A DNA stretch of 64,000 nt. Origin: Acidimicrobiales bacterium. Its GTDB lineage: Bacteria; Actinomycetota; Acidimicrobiia; Acidimicrobiales; MedAcidi-G1. Below are positions 34,530-54,417 of the stretch, piece after piece. Below the pieces are notes generated by a model, which did no database searches, had not been told where the DNA came from, and was given only the letters and a program-made list of their open reading frames with translations. The position numbers were made by a program, and so were the translations under genes. The stretch lies in assembly GCA_029242745.1 (NCBI GenBank), contig JAQWTI010000037.1:1-64000 (forward strand), in the 5' to 3' direction. Position 1 is the first letter of the stretch; every line of letters begins with the position of its first letter.

Positions 34530-34740
34530 CGGTATTCCTCCCAGCCCTACACGGCTTTGTCCGGAGAGGGACACCCCTAGTTGCCAGCGAAGAACTGCTT
34601 AGAGCACGGAGCCCAAACACCTCAGACACTTGGTTGCTCTGGCCATCTGACCTGAGCCACATCTCCGCCATAAGCGGACAGCACCTTGGGTGTCCATCCC
34701 AGGTTGCTGGACACGCCACAAGACGTGTCTCTCTTAATGT
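34530..34740 (-). promoter_or_regulatory. structured 5' leader of metY, possible SAM-sensing RNA
   Basis: The minus-strand RNA can form GACACG/CGTGTC, then CAGCAACCT (34701-34709) with AGGTGCTG (34679-34686), which resembles the P3 core (GCAACC...GGTGC) of SAM-I/SAM-IV riboswitches. Then come AGAGCA/TGCTCT, TGTCC/GGACA and AGCC/GGGCT just before the ribosome-binding site. A SAM-responsive leader would suit metY. The full SAM-I or SAM-IV consensus was not found, so the ligand is unproven. Confidence 0.4.
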
Positions 34741-34930
34741 GATCCCTAGTTAACCAGAATTTCGACCACTTTGTTCGAATATGAGGCCAACATTCTGGCA
34801 ATGTCTCATAATCAGCCCAACTAAGCCTGACAAGACCAATTAATTAGGTGAGCCAGTTCCCTTCTCGCTACCCCCGGACGCCAGCAATACCTGGAACTGA
34901 TCCTTATTCATGTCTCCCCACACGCAACAC
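34544..34930. repeat. long direct repeat, copy 1 (387 bp)
   Basis: Nearly identical to 43880-44265 in the same orientation: I count about 10 substitutions and one 1-bp indel. This copy spans the metY leader and the last codons of the CoA-transferase gene. The two copies lie 9336 bp apart. Confidence 0.97.
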
Positions 34931-43879: not shown

Positions 43880-44265
43880 GCCCTACACGGCTTTGTCCGG
43901 AGAGGGACACCCCTAGTTGCCAGCGAAGAACTGCTTAGAGCACGGGGCCCAAACACCTCAGACACTTGGTTGCTCTGGCCATCTGAACTGAGCCACATCT
44001 CCGCCATAAGCGGACAGCACCTTGGGTGTCCATCCCAGGTTGCTGGACACGCCACAAGACGTGTCGCTCTTAATGTGATCCCTAGTTAACCAGAACTTCG
44101 ACCACTTTGTTCGAATATGAGGCCAACATTCTGGCAATGCCTCATAATCAGCCCAACTAAGTCTGACAAGACCAATTAATTAGATGAGCCAGTTCCCTTC
44201 TTGCTACCCCCGACGCCAGCAATACCTGGAACTGATCCTTATTCGTTTCTCCCCACACGCAACAC
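43880..44265. repeat. long direct repeat, copy 2 (386 bp)
   Basis: About 97% identical to 34544-34930, same orientation. It carries the full metY-leader-like RNA (P3-like stem at 44015-44045) and a remnant of the CoA-transferase 3' end. Here it lies between the importer operon and the amidohydrolase gene at 44275. The 281 bp between it and the lipoprotein start is very AT-rich and holds no gene. Confidence 0.97.
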
Positions 44266-48148: not shown

Positions 48149-48907
48149 GTGGACGTTGCAATAAGCAAATTACGCAAACTCAACTTGGCCGCAGGGCTAC
48201 TACACCTCGTGTCGCTCATCGGGATCCTTTTGCTCTCAAACGACGTATCGCTCCCTATTCGAGCGACCTACATGACCGGTGCCCCATCAACCGACTCATT
48301 TTCTGATCCTGTCAACTTATTCAACCTAAACATCGGCTACTCGGTCGCCATTTTTTTCGGGCTTTCAGCCTTCTTTCATTTCTTGGTTTGCTCACCAAAG
48401 TTCTTCCCTCGCTACGCAGACGGCCTTCGCCGTAATCAAAACATATTTCGTTGGGTTGAATACTCGATTTCATCCTCAATCATGATCGTGGTGATCCTGC
48501 AACTCAATGGAACAACTGACTACATCGCCCTTACCGGCATTTTTGCAGTCAACGCGTGCATGATCTTGTTTGGATGGCTGCAGGAGAGGTACACCTCTCC
48601 AGGTGATGGCGACCTTTTGCCCTTTACTTTTGGAAGCCTTGCCGGAATGGTGCCCTGGTTGGTGGTCACAATCAGCCTTATCTCACCCAAGGGCCCAACT
48701 CCAGATCCCACCCCCGGCTTCGTGTACGGCATCGTGATCTCGCTGTTCCTCTTGTTCAACTGCTTTGCAATTATTCAATGGAAGCAGTACCGCGCTCTTG
48801 GCAAGTGGGCCAACTACCTCCATGGCGAGCGTCGCTATATCATTCTCAGTCTGGTCGCGAAGTCTGCTTTGGCTTGGCAGGTTTTCGCCGGGACACTTGC
48901 TGGATGA
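48149..48907 (+). CDS. heliorhodopsin
   Basis: 252-residue seven-helix retinal protein of the heliorhodopsin family, which has an inverted membrane topology compared with type 1 rhodopsins. The retinal Schiff-base Lys is K238 in SLVAKSALAWQ. The counterion Glu is E104 in RWVEYSISSS. Other family residues are present at matching positions: H19, H77, R101, S234 and W243 (HeR 48C12 numbering H23, H80, R104, S237, W246). GTG start with AGGA 7 nt upstream. No retinal-synthesis gene (blh, crtI) lies beside it. Heliorhodopsins do not appear to pump ions; proposed roles are light sensing or enzyme regulation. Confidence 0.95.
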   Translation: MDVAISKLRKLNLAAGLLHLVSLIGILLLSNDVSLPIRATYMTGAPSTDSFSDPVNLFNLNIGYSVAIFFGLSAFFHFLVCSPKFFPRYADGLRRNQNIFRWVEYSISSSIMIVVILQLNGTTDYIALTGIFAVNACMILFGWLQERYTSPGDGDLLPFTFGSLAGMVPWLVVTISLISPKGPTPDPTPGFVYGIVISLFLLFNCFAIIQWKQYRALGKWANYLHGERRYIILSLVAKSALAWQVFAGTLAG

Positions 48908-49695: not shown

Positions 49696-50709
49696 ATGAT
49701 GGAACGCTTGAACTTGACCGGTGATCGGCAGGACTGGTACGCCCTAGTCGACGAGGAAGTCATTGACCCGGATCAAGAAATTATCGACCCCCACCACCAC
49801 CTATGGCATCTCCCTGGCGCCAACTACCTCATAGAAGAACTATGGGCAGACACCGAATCAGGCCACCGGGTCACTAAGACCGTCTTCATCGAGTGCCACT
49901 CCTCCTATCGGGACAACGGACCAAACCACCTTCAACCTGTCGGCGAGACTGAGTTCGTCGCAACATTGGCCAACCAAAGCAGAACCGGTCCGGGGCCATA
50001 TATCGCAGGCATAGTTGCCCATGCAGACCTCCGCATGAGCGACCGATTACCCGAAGTATTGGACGCCCACGTTCGAGCCGGTGGCGGCCTGTTCCGGGGC
50101 ATCCGCCATGCTGGCTCCCATGCTGAAAATCGCGAGTTTCTCACGATCCCAGGTCGAGCACCAGCCGGGTTGTTCGCTGATGAGAACTTTCGCGAGGGCG
50201 TACGTCTCCTGGGTCGGCGCGGTTATACGTACGAGAGCTGGCACTACCACTACCAATTGCGCGACTTCATTGAGTTGGCTCGATCTGCACCGGAAACCAC
50301 GATCATTCTCGACCACTTCGGCACACCTCTGGGTGTCGGGCCATACACCAATTATCGGGATGAAATTTTTAATGCCTGGAAAACAGATATCGCTGAGTTG
50401 GCAAGCTGTCCAAACGTGGTAGCCAAACTTGGAGGCCTCGCTATGCCAGACAACGGCTACGGCTGGCACCTAGGTACACGCCCCCCGACCTCCGACGAGG
50501 TCGTAACCGCCCACCGGGACTACTTCCTCCACACCATCGAACAGTTCGGACCTGATCGGTGCATGTTCGAGAGCAATTTTCCTGTTGACCGGGTGTCGAT
50601 GTCGTACAGGACCCTGTATAACGCATTCAAAAAAATGGTCGCCGATTTTGGCGCAGACGAACGCGCTGCAATGTTTGCTGGTACCGCATCACGCGTTTAC
50701 TCCATCTGA
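49696..50709 (+). CDS. COG3618-type metal-dependent hydrolase (amidohydrolase_2)
   Basis: 337-residue TIM-barrel hydrolase of the lactonase/2-pyrone-4,6-dicarboxylate hydrolase-like family. IIDPHHHLWHLPG gives two His ligands near the N-terminus, TVFIECHSSYR, LFRGIRHAGS, the barrel segment TTIILDHFGTP and the catalytic Asp region CMFESNFPVDR follow. ATG start. It begins a co-directional set with DDAH-like, LDI-family and PLP decarboxylase genes. The true substrate is unknown. Confidence 0.85.
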   Translation: MMERLNLTGDRQDWYALVDEEVIDPDQEIIDPHHHLWHLPGANYLIEELWADTESGHRVTKTVFIECHSSYRDNGPNHLQPVGETEFVATLANQSRTGPGPYIAGIVAHADLRMSDRLPEVLDAHVRAGGGLFRGIRHAGSHAENREFLTIPGRAPAGLFADENFREGVRLLGRRGYTYESWHYHYQLRDFIELARSAPETTIILDHFGTPLGVGPYTNYRDEIFNAWKTDIAELASCPNVVAKLGGLAMPDNGYGWHLGTRPPTSDEVVTAHRDYFLHTIEQFGPDRCMFESNFPVDRVSMSYRTLYNAFKKMVADFGADERAAMFAGTASRVYSI

Positions 50710-50725
50710 ACGGGACATCAGGTCA

Positions 50726-51499
50726 ATGCACATCGCCATCACCCGAGAGGTCAGTCAGTCAATCGGGGACTGCGAACTCACCCACCTCGAACGGACTCCA
50801 ATCAACCACAACACCGCCCGAGATCAGCACGCTGCTTACGAGGCCGTGCTCACGAGTTTGGGTTATCAGATCGAACGCTTACCCACCGAACCAAATATGC
50901 CGGACTCGGTGTTTGTGGAGGACGTGGCGGTCGTCCTTGACGAGGTGGCCATCATTACACGGCCGGGTGCCCTGTCGCGCAGAGATGAACGCCCCAGCAT
51001 CGAGAGTGCACTGAGGCCCTATCGTGAACTGGAACACATAACGTCCACGGGGATTCTCGATGGTGGAGATGTCCTAATAGTCGGACGGGACATTTGGATC
51101 GGTGTTTCTAGCCGCAGCAACGTCGATGCCATCGGCCAGTTCCGCTCCCACGTGGATTACCACGGCTACCAAGTCCACAGTGTGCAGATACGCGACTGCC
51201 TGCATTTAAAGTCCGCCGTAACTGCACTCGACGACACGACCGTGCTGGTGAACCCTGCCAGGGTCAATTTGAGTAACTTCAAAAACCAGCGATGTATTCA
51301 GGTTGACCCGTCCGAGCCGGAGGCTGCCAACGCACTTCGGGCAGGCCGCACCATTGTCGCTGCCTCAGCATTTCCTCGGACCGCTGCGCTTATCGAGGCT
51401 GCCGGATTTGCGGTGGTCACAGTAGATGCATCAGAGTTAGCCAAGGCTGAAGGCGCACTGACATGCTGCAGCCTGCTATTTGACGTATCTGTTGCATGA
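50726..51499 (+). CDS. dimethylarginine dimethylaminohydrolase-like enzyme (DDAH)
   Basis: 257-residue amidinotransferase-fold enzyme. Typical DDAH motifs are present: LERTPINHNTARDQHAAY, PDSVFVEDVAVVLDEVAIIT, RPGALSRRDE, LDGGDVL, the catalytic His in CLHLKSAVTALDD and the C-terminal catalytic Cys in GALTCCSLLF. It should hydrolyse methylated arginine or a similar guanidino compound to citrulline plus an amine. I chose ATG 50726, 16 bp after the previous stop. Its TGA overlaps the next gene's ATG (ATGA). Confidence 0.9.
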   Translation: MHIAITREVSQSIGDCELTHLERTPINHNTARDQHAAYEAVLTSLGYQIERLPTEPNMPDSVFVEDVAVVLDEVAIITRPGALSRRDERPSIESALRPYRELEHITSTGILDGGDVLIVGRDIWIGVSSRSNVDAIGQFRSHVDYHGYQVHSVQIRDCLHLKSAVTALDDTTVLVNPARVNLSNFKNQRCIQVDPSEPEAANALRAGRTIVAASAFPRTAALIEAAGFAVVTVDASELAKAEGALTCCSLLFDVSVA

Positions 51500-52989
51500 G
51501 CCTCACCAACTCCCCTCTCCCGCTGGATAAACGGTCACTCGGCTGGCTGCGTTATCTCCACCGTAAGGCCACTACACCAGACAACTGGAACCGTGACGGC
51601 CAGCCTCACCCCCACTGGGATGACCGCACCGGGGAACCGATGCTTTCCTGGCACCGATTTGACCTCGTGGACTCGAGCTACGCGTTAGCTCTTATGGCAG
51701 ATCGCACCCCTGCCTGGAGAGAGGTGTATGCCGAGATCCTCGACCAACTCATTACTAGACATACCTCGTGGTGGGCGGCATCTGACTGGCTAACCCAATT
51801 CGGCCCCGATCCCGATCGTTCCCACTATCCACAAGAGTGGAGACCCCTTGTTCCTGCCGAACGGTGGGGCGACTACGACGTGCCCGGCTGGACCGCTAAC
51901 GGCATCGAGCCGTACGGCACTCAAATGGATCCCATCGCCGCCGATGGAATGCTCTTCTTTAAAGGATTCTTCGGACTGCTTTTAGGCCTTCACCGTCGCG
52001 TTACCGGCGATGGTCGTTGGAATCAGCCCTTCGAAATGATCCAGGACGGTGAGCACACCTTTACCTGGTCACATTCGGCTATCGCATCCCACTTGACCGA
52101 CCAGTGGCGCAAACGACCAATTGGGGTGCACTGCGAAAATACAAAGATCTGGCCCTACTGACTGAGCGGCGCCGGCCTCGGTCTGAGGCTGCACGACTCT
52201 CTTCTTGGCACCAACTACCACCAAGTCTTTGACCGCTGGTGGGACCACGCTGAGGCCAACTACATCACTTGGCAGGACGGACGACCCGTCGCCATGGACC
52301 TCTACTACGACCCAGTGATCGACGAGCACGTGGCCAATCCACTGGGCCTGATGGCGCCCGTTTGGTATCTAGCCCCCCAGAGGCCGAAAGTCGCCCGTTC
52401 TGCTTGGGAGTTGGCAGTCATGTTGACTGGTCTGGACGGCGAAGGTGACCCTGCCGGGCTCAATGATCCAGCATTCATTTCGCTTCTGGCTATGCAAACC
52501 GGTGAGTTCGACAATGGACGAGTGCAGGATCGCCTCTGGGAGGTCCTCGACGACATCCACGAGCCCAACTGGGACCCCAACACCGGCGAATTCACCTTCG
52601 GGTTCGGACTTGGTGAGCCATATCCACGGGGTCAATTGAACGCACGCGCTATGGCCGGCTGGGTTTGCACGCCCGGTGCCTGGAGCAAACTTTTTGATGC
52701 CTGCAGCAATGACCGGTTTACCGAGCCGACGGTCTCCGGTGTCGACTTCCCAAATACCGCTTTGAGCGAAGCCCAGTGGGATGGTGACGCATTGCATGTA
52801 GCGGCACAGGCTCGGAACGAGTCGCTCGTCGACTCTCCAACCTCAGTCCGAATCACTGCACTCCCAGCAGATGGGCCATGGATCCTTGTACAACCTGACG
52901 ACTCCAAAGTGCCGATTGAAATTGTTTCCGGCGAAACCACCGTGGAACTCAGAGCCGATGGTCGTCGGCGTACTCTGAGGCAATCTTGA
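51496..52989 (+). CDS. linalool dehydratase/isomerase-family protein with in-frame TGA (candidate selenoprotein)
   Basis: One continuous 497-codon frame interrupted only by TGA at codon 222 (52159-52161). The reading frame and protein-like composition continue for 275 codons beyond it (LSGAGLGLRLHDSLLG...). The sequence before it reads HCENTKIWPY. The Cys at codon 213 is nine residues before the TGA, the same spacing as Cys171 and Cys180 in linalool dehydratase/isomerase (numbering from memory). RFDLVDSSYAL also has the Asp-x5-Tyr spacing of Asp39/Tyr45. A hairpin like the E. coli fdhF SECIS follows the TGA. Either Sec is inserted, or the gene carries a nonsense mutation and makes two fragments (51496-52161; 52294-52989). 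The ATG overlaps the DDAH stop. Substrate unknown. Confidence 0.8.
52174..52190 (+). promoter_or_regulatory. SECIS-like hairpin downstream of in-frame TGA
   Basis: GGCCTC (52174-52179), loop GGTCT (52180-52184) and GAGGCT (52185-52190) make a 6-bp stem including one G-U pair. The loop starts 18 nt after the TGA, as in E. coli fdhF, where the loop is also GGUCU with essential G23 and U24. The bulged U17 of fdhF is not present; here position 17 is a paired G. The lower stem is weak. Confidence 0.5.
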
Positions 52990-53046: not shown

Positions 53047-54417
53047 ATGCATGAGTACGACACTGAAAATCAGGCCCTCGTCCGATCAGTAGTTGATTAC
53101 GCCTTGGCACGCTTGGTCGAAGAACCGCCTCTCCGACCCGTTAAAACCGCCCATGAGTTGCAAGCACTAGTCGGCAAAACCATTACGGCCGAGGGACTGG
53201 GTGGCAACGAGGCGTTATCCCGCTATGCCGAACATCTCGCTCCTAGCACCATCGCTGCCGACAACCCTCGCTACCTGGCCTTTGTTGCCGGTGCACCGAC
53301 CCCTGCCGCAACCGCCTTCGACTTCGCTGTGACCTCATCGGCGGTCGCTGGATCAAGTTGGCTAGACGGTGCTGGTCTGGTCCACGCCGAGAACGAGGCG
53401 CTCCGGTGGATTGCCGACCTGGCAGGACTTCCCAAAGCCGCTGGCGGTTGTTTCGTCACTGGTGGAACTATGGGGAATCTGTCTGCACTCGTCACAGCCC
53501 GTGATGCAGCGAACCGAGGCCGCGTCAGCGCTGGAACCACCCGTCCGGAACGGTGGGCGGTAGTCGCGTCAGCCAGTTCACATGCGTCAATCGGCTCTGC
53601 TGCCCGTGTTATGGATATAGATGTCATTGTCGCCGACCTAGACGAGGAACTACGCCTGACCGGAGATTCAGTGGCCGCAGCGATAAGAAATCGGCCTGAT
53701 CACACTGAGATCTTCGCCGTGGTAGCTACCGCCGGCACCACAAACGTGGGTGTAGTTGATGCGCTCGATTCGATAGCTCAAGTGTGTGATATTCATGGAA
53801 TCTGGTTTCACGTTGACGGCGCTTACGGTGGCGCAGCACTGGCCGCTCCATCAGTCAAACACCGCTTTAAGGGAATTTCACGCTGTGACTCGCTGATTGT
53901 TGACCCCCACAAGTGGTTGTTTTCACCGTTCGACTGCGCTGCGCTTATCTATCGTGACCCAACGCCAGCCCGCCTTGCGCATACACAGCATGCTGGCTAC
54001 CTCGATCCACTAATCGATGAGACCGTGTTCAACCCCAGCGACCATGCTCACGTACTAACCCGCCGGGCCCGCGGCTTGCCCTTCTGGTTTTCGCTAGCCG
54101 TCTACGGCACCAATGCCTACCGGGATGCCATCGAACAGACCCTTACCGTGGCTCGGGCCACTCGAGATCTAGTCCTACGCTCCGCTCATCTCGAGCTAGT
54201 AATCGAGCCAGAACTATCAGTCGTAGCGTTCCGTCGCCAAGGCTGGGACGCTCAGGACTATCAGGCGTGGTGTGACCAGTTGCTTACCGCAGGGATGGCG
54301 CTGCTCACCCCCACCACGTTTGACGGTCAGCCAGCCATGCGGGTATGCATCATCAACCCGAGAACAACAGTGGATGACCTTGCTGAGATCCTCGCAACTC
54401 TCAACCCTGTTGCCTAG
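53047..54417 (+). CDS. PLP-dependent amino acid decarboxylase (group II)
   Basis: 456-residue aromatic-L-amino-acid/glutamate decarboxylase-type enzyme. The PLP Lys is in VDPHKWLFSPFDC, the Asp holding the pyridine N is in HVDGAYGGAAL, and TGGTMGNLSALVTARD and ATAGTTNVGVVD are typical. ATG start, 57 bp after the LDI-family gene. It may make an amine from an amino acid connected to the DDAH step, though the substrate is not resolved. Confidence 0.9.
   Translation: MHEYDTENQALVRSVVDYALARLVEEPPLRPVKTAHELQALVGKTITAEGLGGNEALSRYAEHLAPSTIAADNPRYLAFVAGAPTPAATAFDFAVTSSAVAGSSWLDGAGLVHAENEALRWIADLAGLPKAAGGCFVTGGTMGNLSALVTARDAANRGRVSAGTTRPERWAVVASASSHASIGSAARVMDIDVIVADLDEELRLTGDSVAAAIRNRPDHTEIFAVVATAGTTNVGVVDALDSIAQVCDIHGIWFHVDGAYGGAALAAPSVKHRFKGISRCDSLIVDPHKWLFSPFDCAALIYRDPTPARLAHTQHAGYLDPLIDETVFNPSDHAHVLTRRARGLPFWFSLAVYGTNAYRDAIEQTLTVARATRDLVLRSAHLELVIEPELSVVAFRRQGWDAQDYQAWCDQLLTAGMALLTPTTFDGQPAMRVCIINPRTTVDDLAEILATLNPVA

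Follow-up and report, generated by a model that had tools for sequence, protein, structure and literature searches.

In this article we describe a gene in which a catalytic cysteine of an enzyme with the fold of linalool dehydratase/isomerase (LDI) is very probably replaced by selenocysteine (Sec): on the comparisons presented here a probability of about 95% is given to the reading that the in-frame UGA at residue 222 encodes Sec. The gene lies in the window (the whole stretch of 64,000 nucleotides that was analysed, from a contig of an Acidimicrobiales bacterium), and its position and those of the associated features are collected in Table 1. A preliminary description of the same DNA had proposed that this UGA encodes Sec in place of a catalytic Cys, and the Sec machinery of the genome, the homologues and a hairpin behind the codon lend support to that proposal. 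Judged from its relatives, the gene appears to belong to a selenoprotein family in the LDI fold that is spread over several phyla and absent from the sources searched.

Table 1. Positions of the predicted Sec gene, its putative recoding elements and its neighbours
Feature	Position	Strand	Basis
Predicted Sec-containing LDI-family gene, 497 residues with Sec222	51496..52989	+	PF18566 match of 61.4 bits, relatives, structural model, Foldseek
Cys213 codon, equivalent of LDI Cys171	52132..52134	+	TGA in 21/80 named relatives
Predicted Sec222 UGA codon, equivalent of LDI Cys180	52159..52161	+	reading frame, relatives, PDB alignments
Putative SECIS hairpin, stem GGCCTC/GAGGCT, loop GGTCT	52174..52190	+	comparative: conserved loop, pairs and codons
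Dimethylargininase/arginine-deiminase-like gene	50585..51499	+	its stop overlaps the ATG of the Sec gene by 4 bases; cluster in 9/81 loci
PLP-dependent decarboxylase-like gene, downstream	53047..54417	+	same cluster in 6/81 loci, window included
Amidohydrolase (PF04909), upstream	49696..50709	+	cluster in 4/81 loci
Extra hairpin, candidate first SECIS	columns 17-39 of alignment A4 (21 Sec/Sec loci between L080 and L112)		pairing in Sec/Sec genes

The reading frame and its relatives

The frame contains one internal TGA, nine residues past Cys213, and 275 sense codons stand between this codon and the terminal TGA. Downstream of the internal TGA purifying selection acts on the frame as far as 52989: in the comparison of the window gene with L045 dN was 0.231 and dS 1.69 (dN/dS about 0.14; in NG86 estimates a dS above 1 is near saturation), and in the 10 pairs tested by the same method dN ranged from 0.065 to 0.38 and dS from 0.60 to 1.69, therefore dN is well below dS in this part of the gene. 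In each of the 10 pairs dN downstream of the TGA exceeds dN upstream of it. The preliminary description of a single TGA in a 497-codon frame with intact coding after it is borne out by these results, and the pattern that it regarded as contrary to Sec, i.e. random stop codons and lost selection downstream, is absent.

A search of 100 related genomes returned a match at 1e-10 in 24 of them. All 18 near-full-length matches in the window's own family (window included) have TGA at the Sec222 codon; outside this family L019 and L020 have TGA at both Cys positions and L021 at the second only, and altogether TGA stands at the Sec222 codon in 21 of 21 TGA-bearing near-full-length matches, the window included. 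L023 and L024 are fragments that do not reach this codon, and in the distant LDI-family relative L022:1501-2802 (G087), which is 45% identical, the catalytic positions are occupied by Ser and His, and TGA is lacking. Genome contigs were also scanned with the patterns CENTKIW and PM[LAF]SWHRF, and the best 80 of 243 relatives, which overlap with the loci of the related genomes, were examined at the two catalytic positions: 48 were Cys/Sec (L109 being counted here from another frame than that at its reported start), 21 Sec/Sec and 11 Cys/Cys, numbers which are not frequencies because the CENTKIW pattern demands Cys at the first catalytic position. The Sec222 codon is TGA in 69 of these best 80 relatives and TGC/TGT in 11, without any TAA or TAG. 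Cys or TGA is accordingly found at this codon in the homologues, as the alignment proposed in the preliminary description was meant to reveal, the His of L022 excepted; with the same codon being TGA in relatives, the TGA at residue 222 is, on sequence comparison, far beyond chance.

According to the names in the records, the Cys/Sec form occurs in Acidimicrobiia, in Gamma-, Alpha- and Deltaproteobacteria and in Entotheonella, the Sec/Sec form in Acidimicrobiia and less closely named actinobacteria, and the Cys/Cys form in Pseudonocardia, Ktedonospora, Chloroflexi, several Proteobacteria MAGs and two 'Candidatus Microthrix' records; chromosome records of Entotheonella and of an alphaproteobacterium are among those with the TGA form. 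The Cys/Cys relatives share the motif HCENTKIWP.C with the window protein, to which their best segment is 44-52% identical; they differ in that the codon is one for Cys and that the paired hairpin is missing. A quick tree built from 81 rows (the window, L022 and 79 of the 80 loci, with L109 left out, the two catalytic columns masked and the root not inferred) indicates, L022 not being counted, at least two changes between Cys and Sec at the second position, at least two at the first and at least four for the three states. The Cys/Sec loci L087 and L090 sit within the Sec/Sec clade on this tree.

Since TGC or TGT is one substitution away from TGA, a disrupted gene or a sequencing error would look the same in a single sequence. 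This explanation was rejected and has next to no probability, given that TGA is shared by 69 of the 80 named loci (best 80 of 243) from several phyla, that selection continues downstream and that a hairpin is conserved behind the codon.

Relationship to linalool dehydratase/isomerase

The fold of LDI is an alpha/alpha barrel, and His129 is a residue with a role in this enzyme. The window protein matches the Pfam family Ldi (PF18566) with 61.4 bits, the gathering cut-off being 26.1, and all 63 aligned members, namely the window protein and 62 of the 80 loci, match the same family at E 0.001 or better; NCBIfam contains no family with a match to the window protein at E 0.001. By phmmer the segment GVHCENTKIWPYULSG (U sent as C) was aligned with GIVCEPDNYFVQCNS of LDI (7ad2_A, E 0.00041), and when residues are counted along the printed 7ad2_A chain Cys213 and residue 222 fall on LDI Cys171 and Cys180, the two residues that are also named in the PDB mutant titles C171A and C180A. 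The family profile, compared with the PDB, found LDI at E 6e-9 with the same Cys pairing, thus a chalcogenol would be present at both LDI Cys positions, with Sec replacing Cys180. An AlphaFold2 model, in which Cys was modelled at position 222, reached a pLDDT of 91.9 and a pTM of 0.93. In the Foldseek comparison of this model with the PDB, LDI occupied ranks 1-27 among the 37 matches at E 0.001 or better, with TM scores of 0.52-0.56 by query and 0.69-0.75 by target. Both the assignment to the LDI family and the location of the UGA at a catalytic Cys, as put forward in the preliminary description, hold by the Pfam score, by the best structural match and by the PDB alignments; linalool chemistry is not implied.

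By the same chain counting LDI His129 aligns with Phe158, and Phe is present in at least 90% of the 63 aligned members, so the window protein departs from the LDI enzyme at this residue and linalool is, from the alignment, probably not its substrate. Together with the low identity of the Foldseek matches (15-16%), this means that the chemistry may differ from that of LDI. Compared with the LDI/LinD of Castellaniella defragrans (PDB 5HLR, 5G1U, 5I3T), the family of the window has in common the Pfam Ldi domain, the fold and the nine-residue spacing of Cys171/Cys180, whereas it has predicted Sec at one or both of these positions, Phe at the position of His129 and, in the window protein, a longer chain (497 versus 371-397 residues).

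The hairpin behind UGA222

The hairpin consists of the arms 52174-52179 and 52185-52190 and the loop 52180-52184, which begins 18 nt past the TGA; its stem, loop and spacing are those given in the preliminary description, and the loop GGTCT and the 18-nt distance are, we presume, the same as in E. coli fdhF. All 48 Cys/Sec rows (the window among them, L109 being left out of the hairpin table) and all 21 Sec/Sec rows have the loop together with six standard pairs; among the Cys/Cys rows the loop letters occur in 2 of 11 and the stem in none of 11. In 20 chosen Cys/Sec rows columns 45/57 are paired as C-G (11 rows), G-C (5) and U-A (4). The same 20 rows hold 9 double-change cells, a value that was equalled in 0 of 500 shuffles, and in slid controls 12.5-62.5% of the cells were paired. 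Changes on both sides were seen in only one of the six stem pairs of these rows, and at least as many double-change pairs and pair types arose in 455 and 451 of 500 shuffles, respectively.

The codon usage of this segment is also unusual. Codons +6, +7 and +8 after the UGA are CTC GGT CTG in 69 of 69 Sec rows; in synonymous comparisons of the 48 Cys/Sec rows the other codons within 30 on each side, Trp aside, are 26-79% identical. Where Arg stands at +9, in the 3' arm, its codon is AGG or AGA without exception (41 of 41 Cys/Sec rows with Arg and 21 of 21 Sec/Sec rows), whereas AGR makes up 10.6% and 5.3%, respectively, of the Arg codons in the rest of these genes. Folded as a single sequence, the window segment has an unremarkable energy (z = -0.22), therefore the evidence for a SECIS is comparative and not thermodynamic. 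The weak points of the hairpin that had been listed in the preliminary description persist in this folding energy, and the comparison which it recommended gave a hairpin conserved in all 69 Sec rows, with one covarying pair, and absent from the Cys/Cys genes.

In the proposed mechanism SelB would bind this short hairpin with the GGUCU loop closely 3' of UGA222 and bring Sec-tRNA(Sec), and the ribosome would read through UGA222 to give the full 497-residue enzyme. The in-frame UGA, the short hairpin, the GGUCU loop, SelA/B/D and tRNA-Sec are common to bacterial selenoproteins with an fdhF-type SECIS, from which the present family differs by its lyase/isomerase fold and by the existence of a Sec/Sec form with the two residues nine positions apart. 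The UGA might alternatively be a selenium-dependent switch with both the short and the long product functional, in agreement with the incomplete recoding of bacterial UGA (30-40% in vivo) given in the available part of PMC4513850; such regulated truncation is very improbable, since the 221-residue product would lack the second catalytic residue and, by the model, more than half of the 497-residue fold.

The selenocysteine machinery

The assembly of the window (2.44 Mb, 94.7% complete) holds a tRNA-Sec with the anticodon tca (67.5 bits), selA (401.8 bits, cut-off 267.9), selB, which adjoins selA (279 bits, cut-off 242.25), and selD (343.6 bits, cut-off 125) with one internal TGA; curated cut-offs are passed by all four, so the genome has each of the components for which the preliminary description had recommended a search. 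The internal TGA of selD (G000:C11:14443-15387, L127) stands in the motif GAGUGCK, like that of known Sec-containing SelD. On the contig of selA and selB a further gene (L125:10307-12148) encodes a 613-residue protein in which a stretch of about 150 residues matches the Fe-S part of xanthine dehydrogenase families, the best match being the selenium-dependent xanthine dehydrogenase family, far under its cut-off.

The machinery also bears on the reading that the window organism has given UGA a different sense meaning, such as Trp or Gly. The frame would stay open whatever residue UGA means; nevertheless, the homologous residue is Cys, the window gene terminates at TGA, as do 15 of the 17 remaining near-full-length homologues in its own family (the last two terminate at TAA), and tRNA-Sec(UCA) and selA/B/D are present, hence code reassignment was rejected as having a negligible probability.

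Co-occurrence was followed in 48 loci from 45 genomes, 34 with a Sec form and 11 with Cys/Cys; L068 and L124, the latter from the same record as L101, are absent from this sample. With E 1e-63 or better required for selB (all hits being above the cut-off) and E 1e-9 or better for tRNA-Sec, selB was found in 29 of 34 Sec-form and in 6 of 11 Cys/Cys genomes, and tRNA-Sec was found in 2 of the 5 selB-less Sec-form genomes and in 1 of the 5 selB-less Cys/Cys genomes. At these thresholds neither was found in 3 of 34 Sec-form genomes, perhaps because of gaps in the MAGs. As 7 of 11 Cys/Cys genomes have selB or tRNA-Sec, the machinery alone fails to discriminate the Sec from the Cys forms, and the presence of selB was set aside as a weak discriminator. 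The contigs of L099 (Cys/Cys) and L066 (Sec form, outside the co-occurrence sample) carry one MAG name, UBA2110, and L099 has a zero end-branch length next to the gammaproteobacterial L123 on the quick tree, which may reflect a binning error; since G103 was counted as Cys/Cys through L099, the two sets of genomes are not fully clean.

Genes with two UGA codons

In the Sec/Sec genes an additional hairpin, UCUGGCC/GGC[CU]GGA, surrounds the second UGA and carries it in its loop. Pairing amounts to 99.3% in 20 distinct Sec/Sec rows versus 55.7% in 20 Cys/Sec rows, and GGA occupies codon +3 in 20 of 21 Sec/Sec rows as against 2 of 48 Cys/Sec rows. No pair of the extra hairpin is changed on both sides in the 20 distinct rows, its loop is without GGUCU, and the Sec/Sec rows belong to one clade, therefore relatedness may explain the pairing. 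This hairpin is regarded, from its pairing pattern, as a candidate SECIS for the first UGA, although a single SECIS may instead serve both UGAs of these genes. Two Sec per protein are also found in the UxxU peroxiredoxin-like proteins, MbdU and TsoB, as listed in the accessible portion of Table 1 of PMC13188914; the Sec/Sec genes differ from these in that the predicted Sec residues occupy both catalytic Cys positions in a single active site of the LDI type, and that the second UGA is within the loop of a hairpin almost restricted to Sec/Sec genes. The preliminary description mentioned neither the Sec/Sec form, seen in 21 of the best 80 of 243 relatives, nor the spread of the family.

Gene neighbourhood

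The neighbours were compared in 81 loci, the window included, and no single conserved pathway was found among them. In the clade of the window the conserved neighbours are the dimethylargininase-like and the PLP decarboxylase genes (Table 1). In another acidimicrobial clade 3-hydroxyisobutyrate-dehydrogenase-like, acyl-CoA-dehydrogenase-like and phosphotriesterase-family genes are adjacent in 8 loci each, with two further loci at a distance for the phosphotriesterase-family cluster, and alcohol dehydrogenase, CoA-transferase, P450 and luciferase-like genes form further clusters. These surroundings are consistent with a catabolic enzyme whose pathway would vary between clades. The window also carries a heliorhodopsin gene at 48149-48907 on the + strand (PF18761; NF038020) and, on the - strand, two matches to the SAM-I/IV riboswitch that exceed the gathering score, at 34620-34745 and 43956-44081.

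Possible function of the Sec residue

The Sec222 selenolate may take the part of LDI Cys180, acting either by general acid/base catalysis or as a nucleophile that forms a covalent intermediate, and the step served would be a lyase or isomerase reaction in a catabolic pathway. For LDI itself the cysteines are credited with non-redox chemistry and acid/base versus covalent thiol mechanisms are debated, according to the part of PMC6013536 that was available, and a noncovalent proposal is represented by the title of a work cited in PMC12455561. Lyase/isomerase chemistry is somewhat preferred by us over redox chemistry for the Sec, by a little better than even odds.

Between the Cys and Sec of the pair (both Sec in one clade) a reversible Se-S or Se-Se bond may also form, and in a redox selenoenzyme a Cys213/Sec222 selenenylsulfide, or a diselenide, would shuttle electrons or reduce a substrate in a repurposed LDI fold. 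This possibility, which we consider appreciable yet clearly short of even, is in line with the occupation of both positions by Cys or Sec in 80 of 80 named loci (best 80 of 243; one scan pattern demanded the first Cys, and the distant L022 has Ser/His), with the ability of Sec to occupy either position, with the low identity to LDI and the lack of conservation of His129, and with the predominance of redox or redox-fold proteins among known selenoproteins in the portion of PMC13188914 that was at hand. It is opposed by the non-redox chemistry of the LDI cysteines mentioned above and by the annotated neighbour proteins, 0 of 10 of which are of thioredoxin or glutaredoxin type, while those 10 look catabolic. 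Returning to the lyase/isomerase reading, its fullest form, in which a selenolate replaces the thiol in a non-redox enzyme and one acidimicrobial clade has gone to Sec/Sec (possibly a diselenide) with tandem hairpins, is put forward only tentatively.

Position among known selenoproteins and significance

In the literature searched (subscription papers and preprints being outside its scope) no paper combined 'linalool dehydratase' with 'selenocysteine' or 'selenoprotein'. As judged by titles and the beginnings of abstracts, the papers on linalool and selenocysteine contained no Sec-containing LDI relative, and those on selenoproteins and Acidimicrobi nothing on an LDI-type selenoprotein; the pairing of selenocysteine with Microtrichales gave nothing, and PF18566 did not appear in the papers of the PF18566/Entotheonella search, among the matches listed. 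The accessible part of Table 1 of the 2026 inventory PMC13188914 (119 families) has no LDI entry, the terms 'linalool' and PF18566 are absent from that paper, and 'linalool' does not occur in the available parts of PMC12013277, PMC9312934 and PMC2398784. The 'hypothetical protein' families GOS_A to C, DG, DW and DF were compared by sequence only through NCBIfam, which by Table 1 of PMC13188914 models most of them; GOS_A is absent from that table as far as it was available. The remark in the preliminary description that it knew of no described Sec-containing member of the LDI family is thus in agreement with the papers, the inventory and NCBIfam, as far as these were searched.

By comparative evidence the present results add a selenoprotein family that did not turn up in the inventories searched, and the fold in which they place Sec is that of an alkenol lyase/isomerase. 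Such genes are presumably truncated or split by automatic annotation, so their pathways may be overlooked. With the Sec/Sec genes it can be tested how recoding takes place at two UGA codons separated by 27 nt: if the candidate hairpin is correct, the second Sec codon would lie in the apical loop of the first hairpin, and the same mRNA segment would serve first as a SECIS and next as a decoded codon. Because Cys/Cys, Cys/Sec and Sec/Sec forms of one active site occur naturally, what selenium does in this family can be tested directly.
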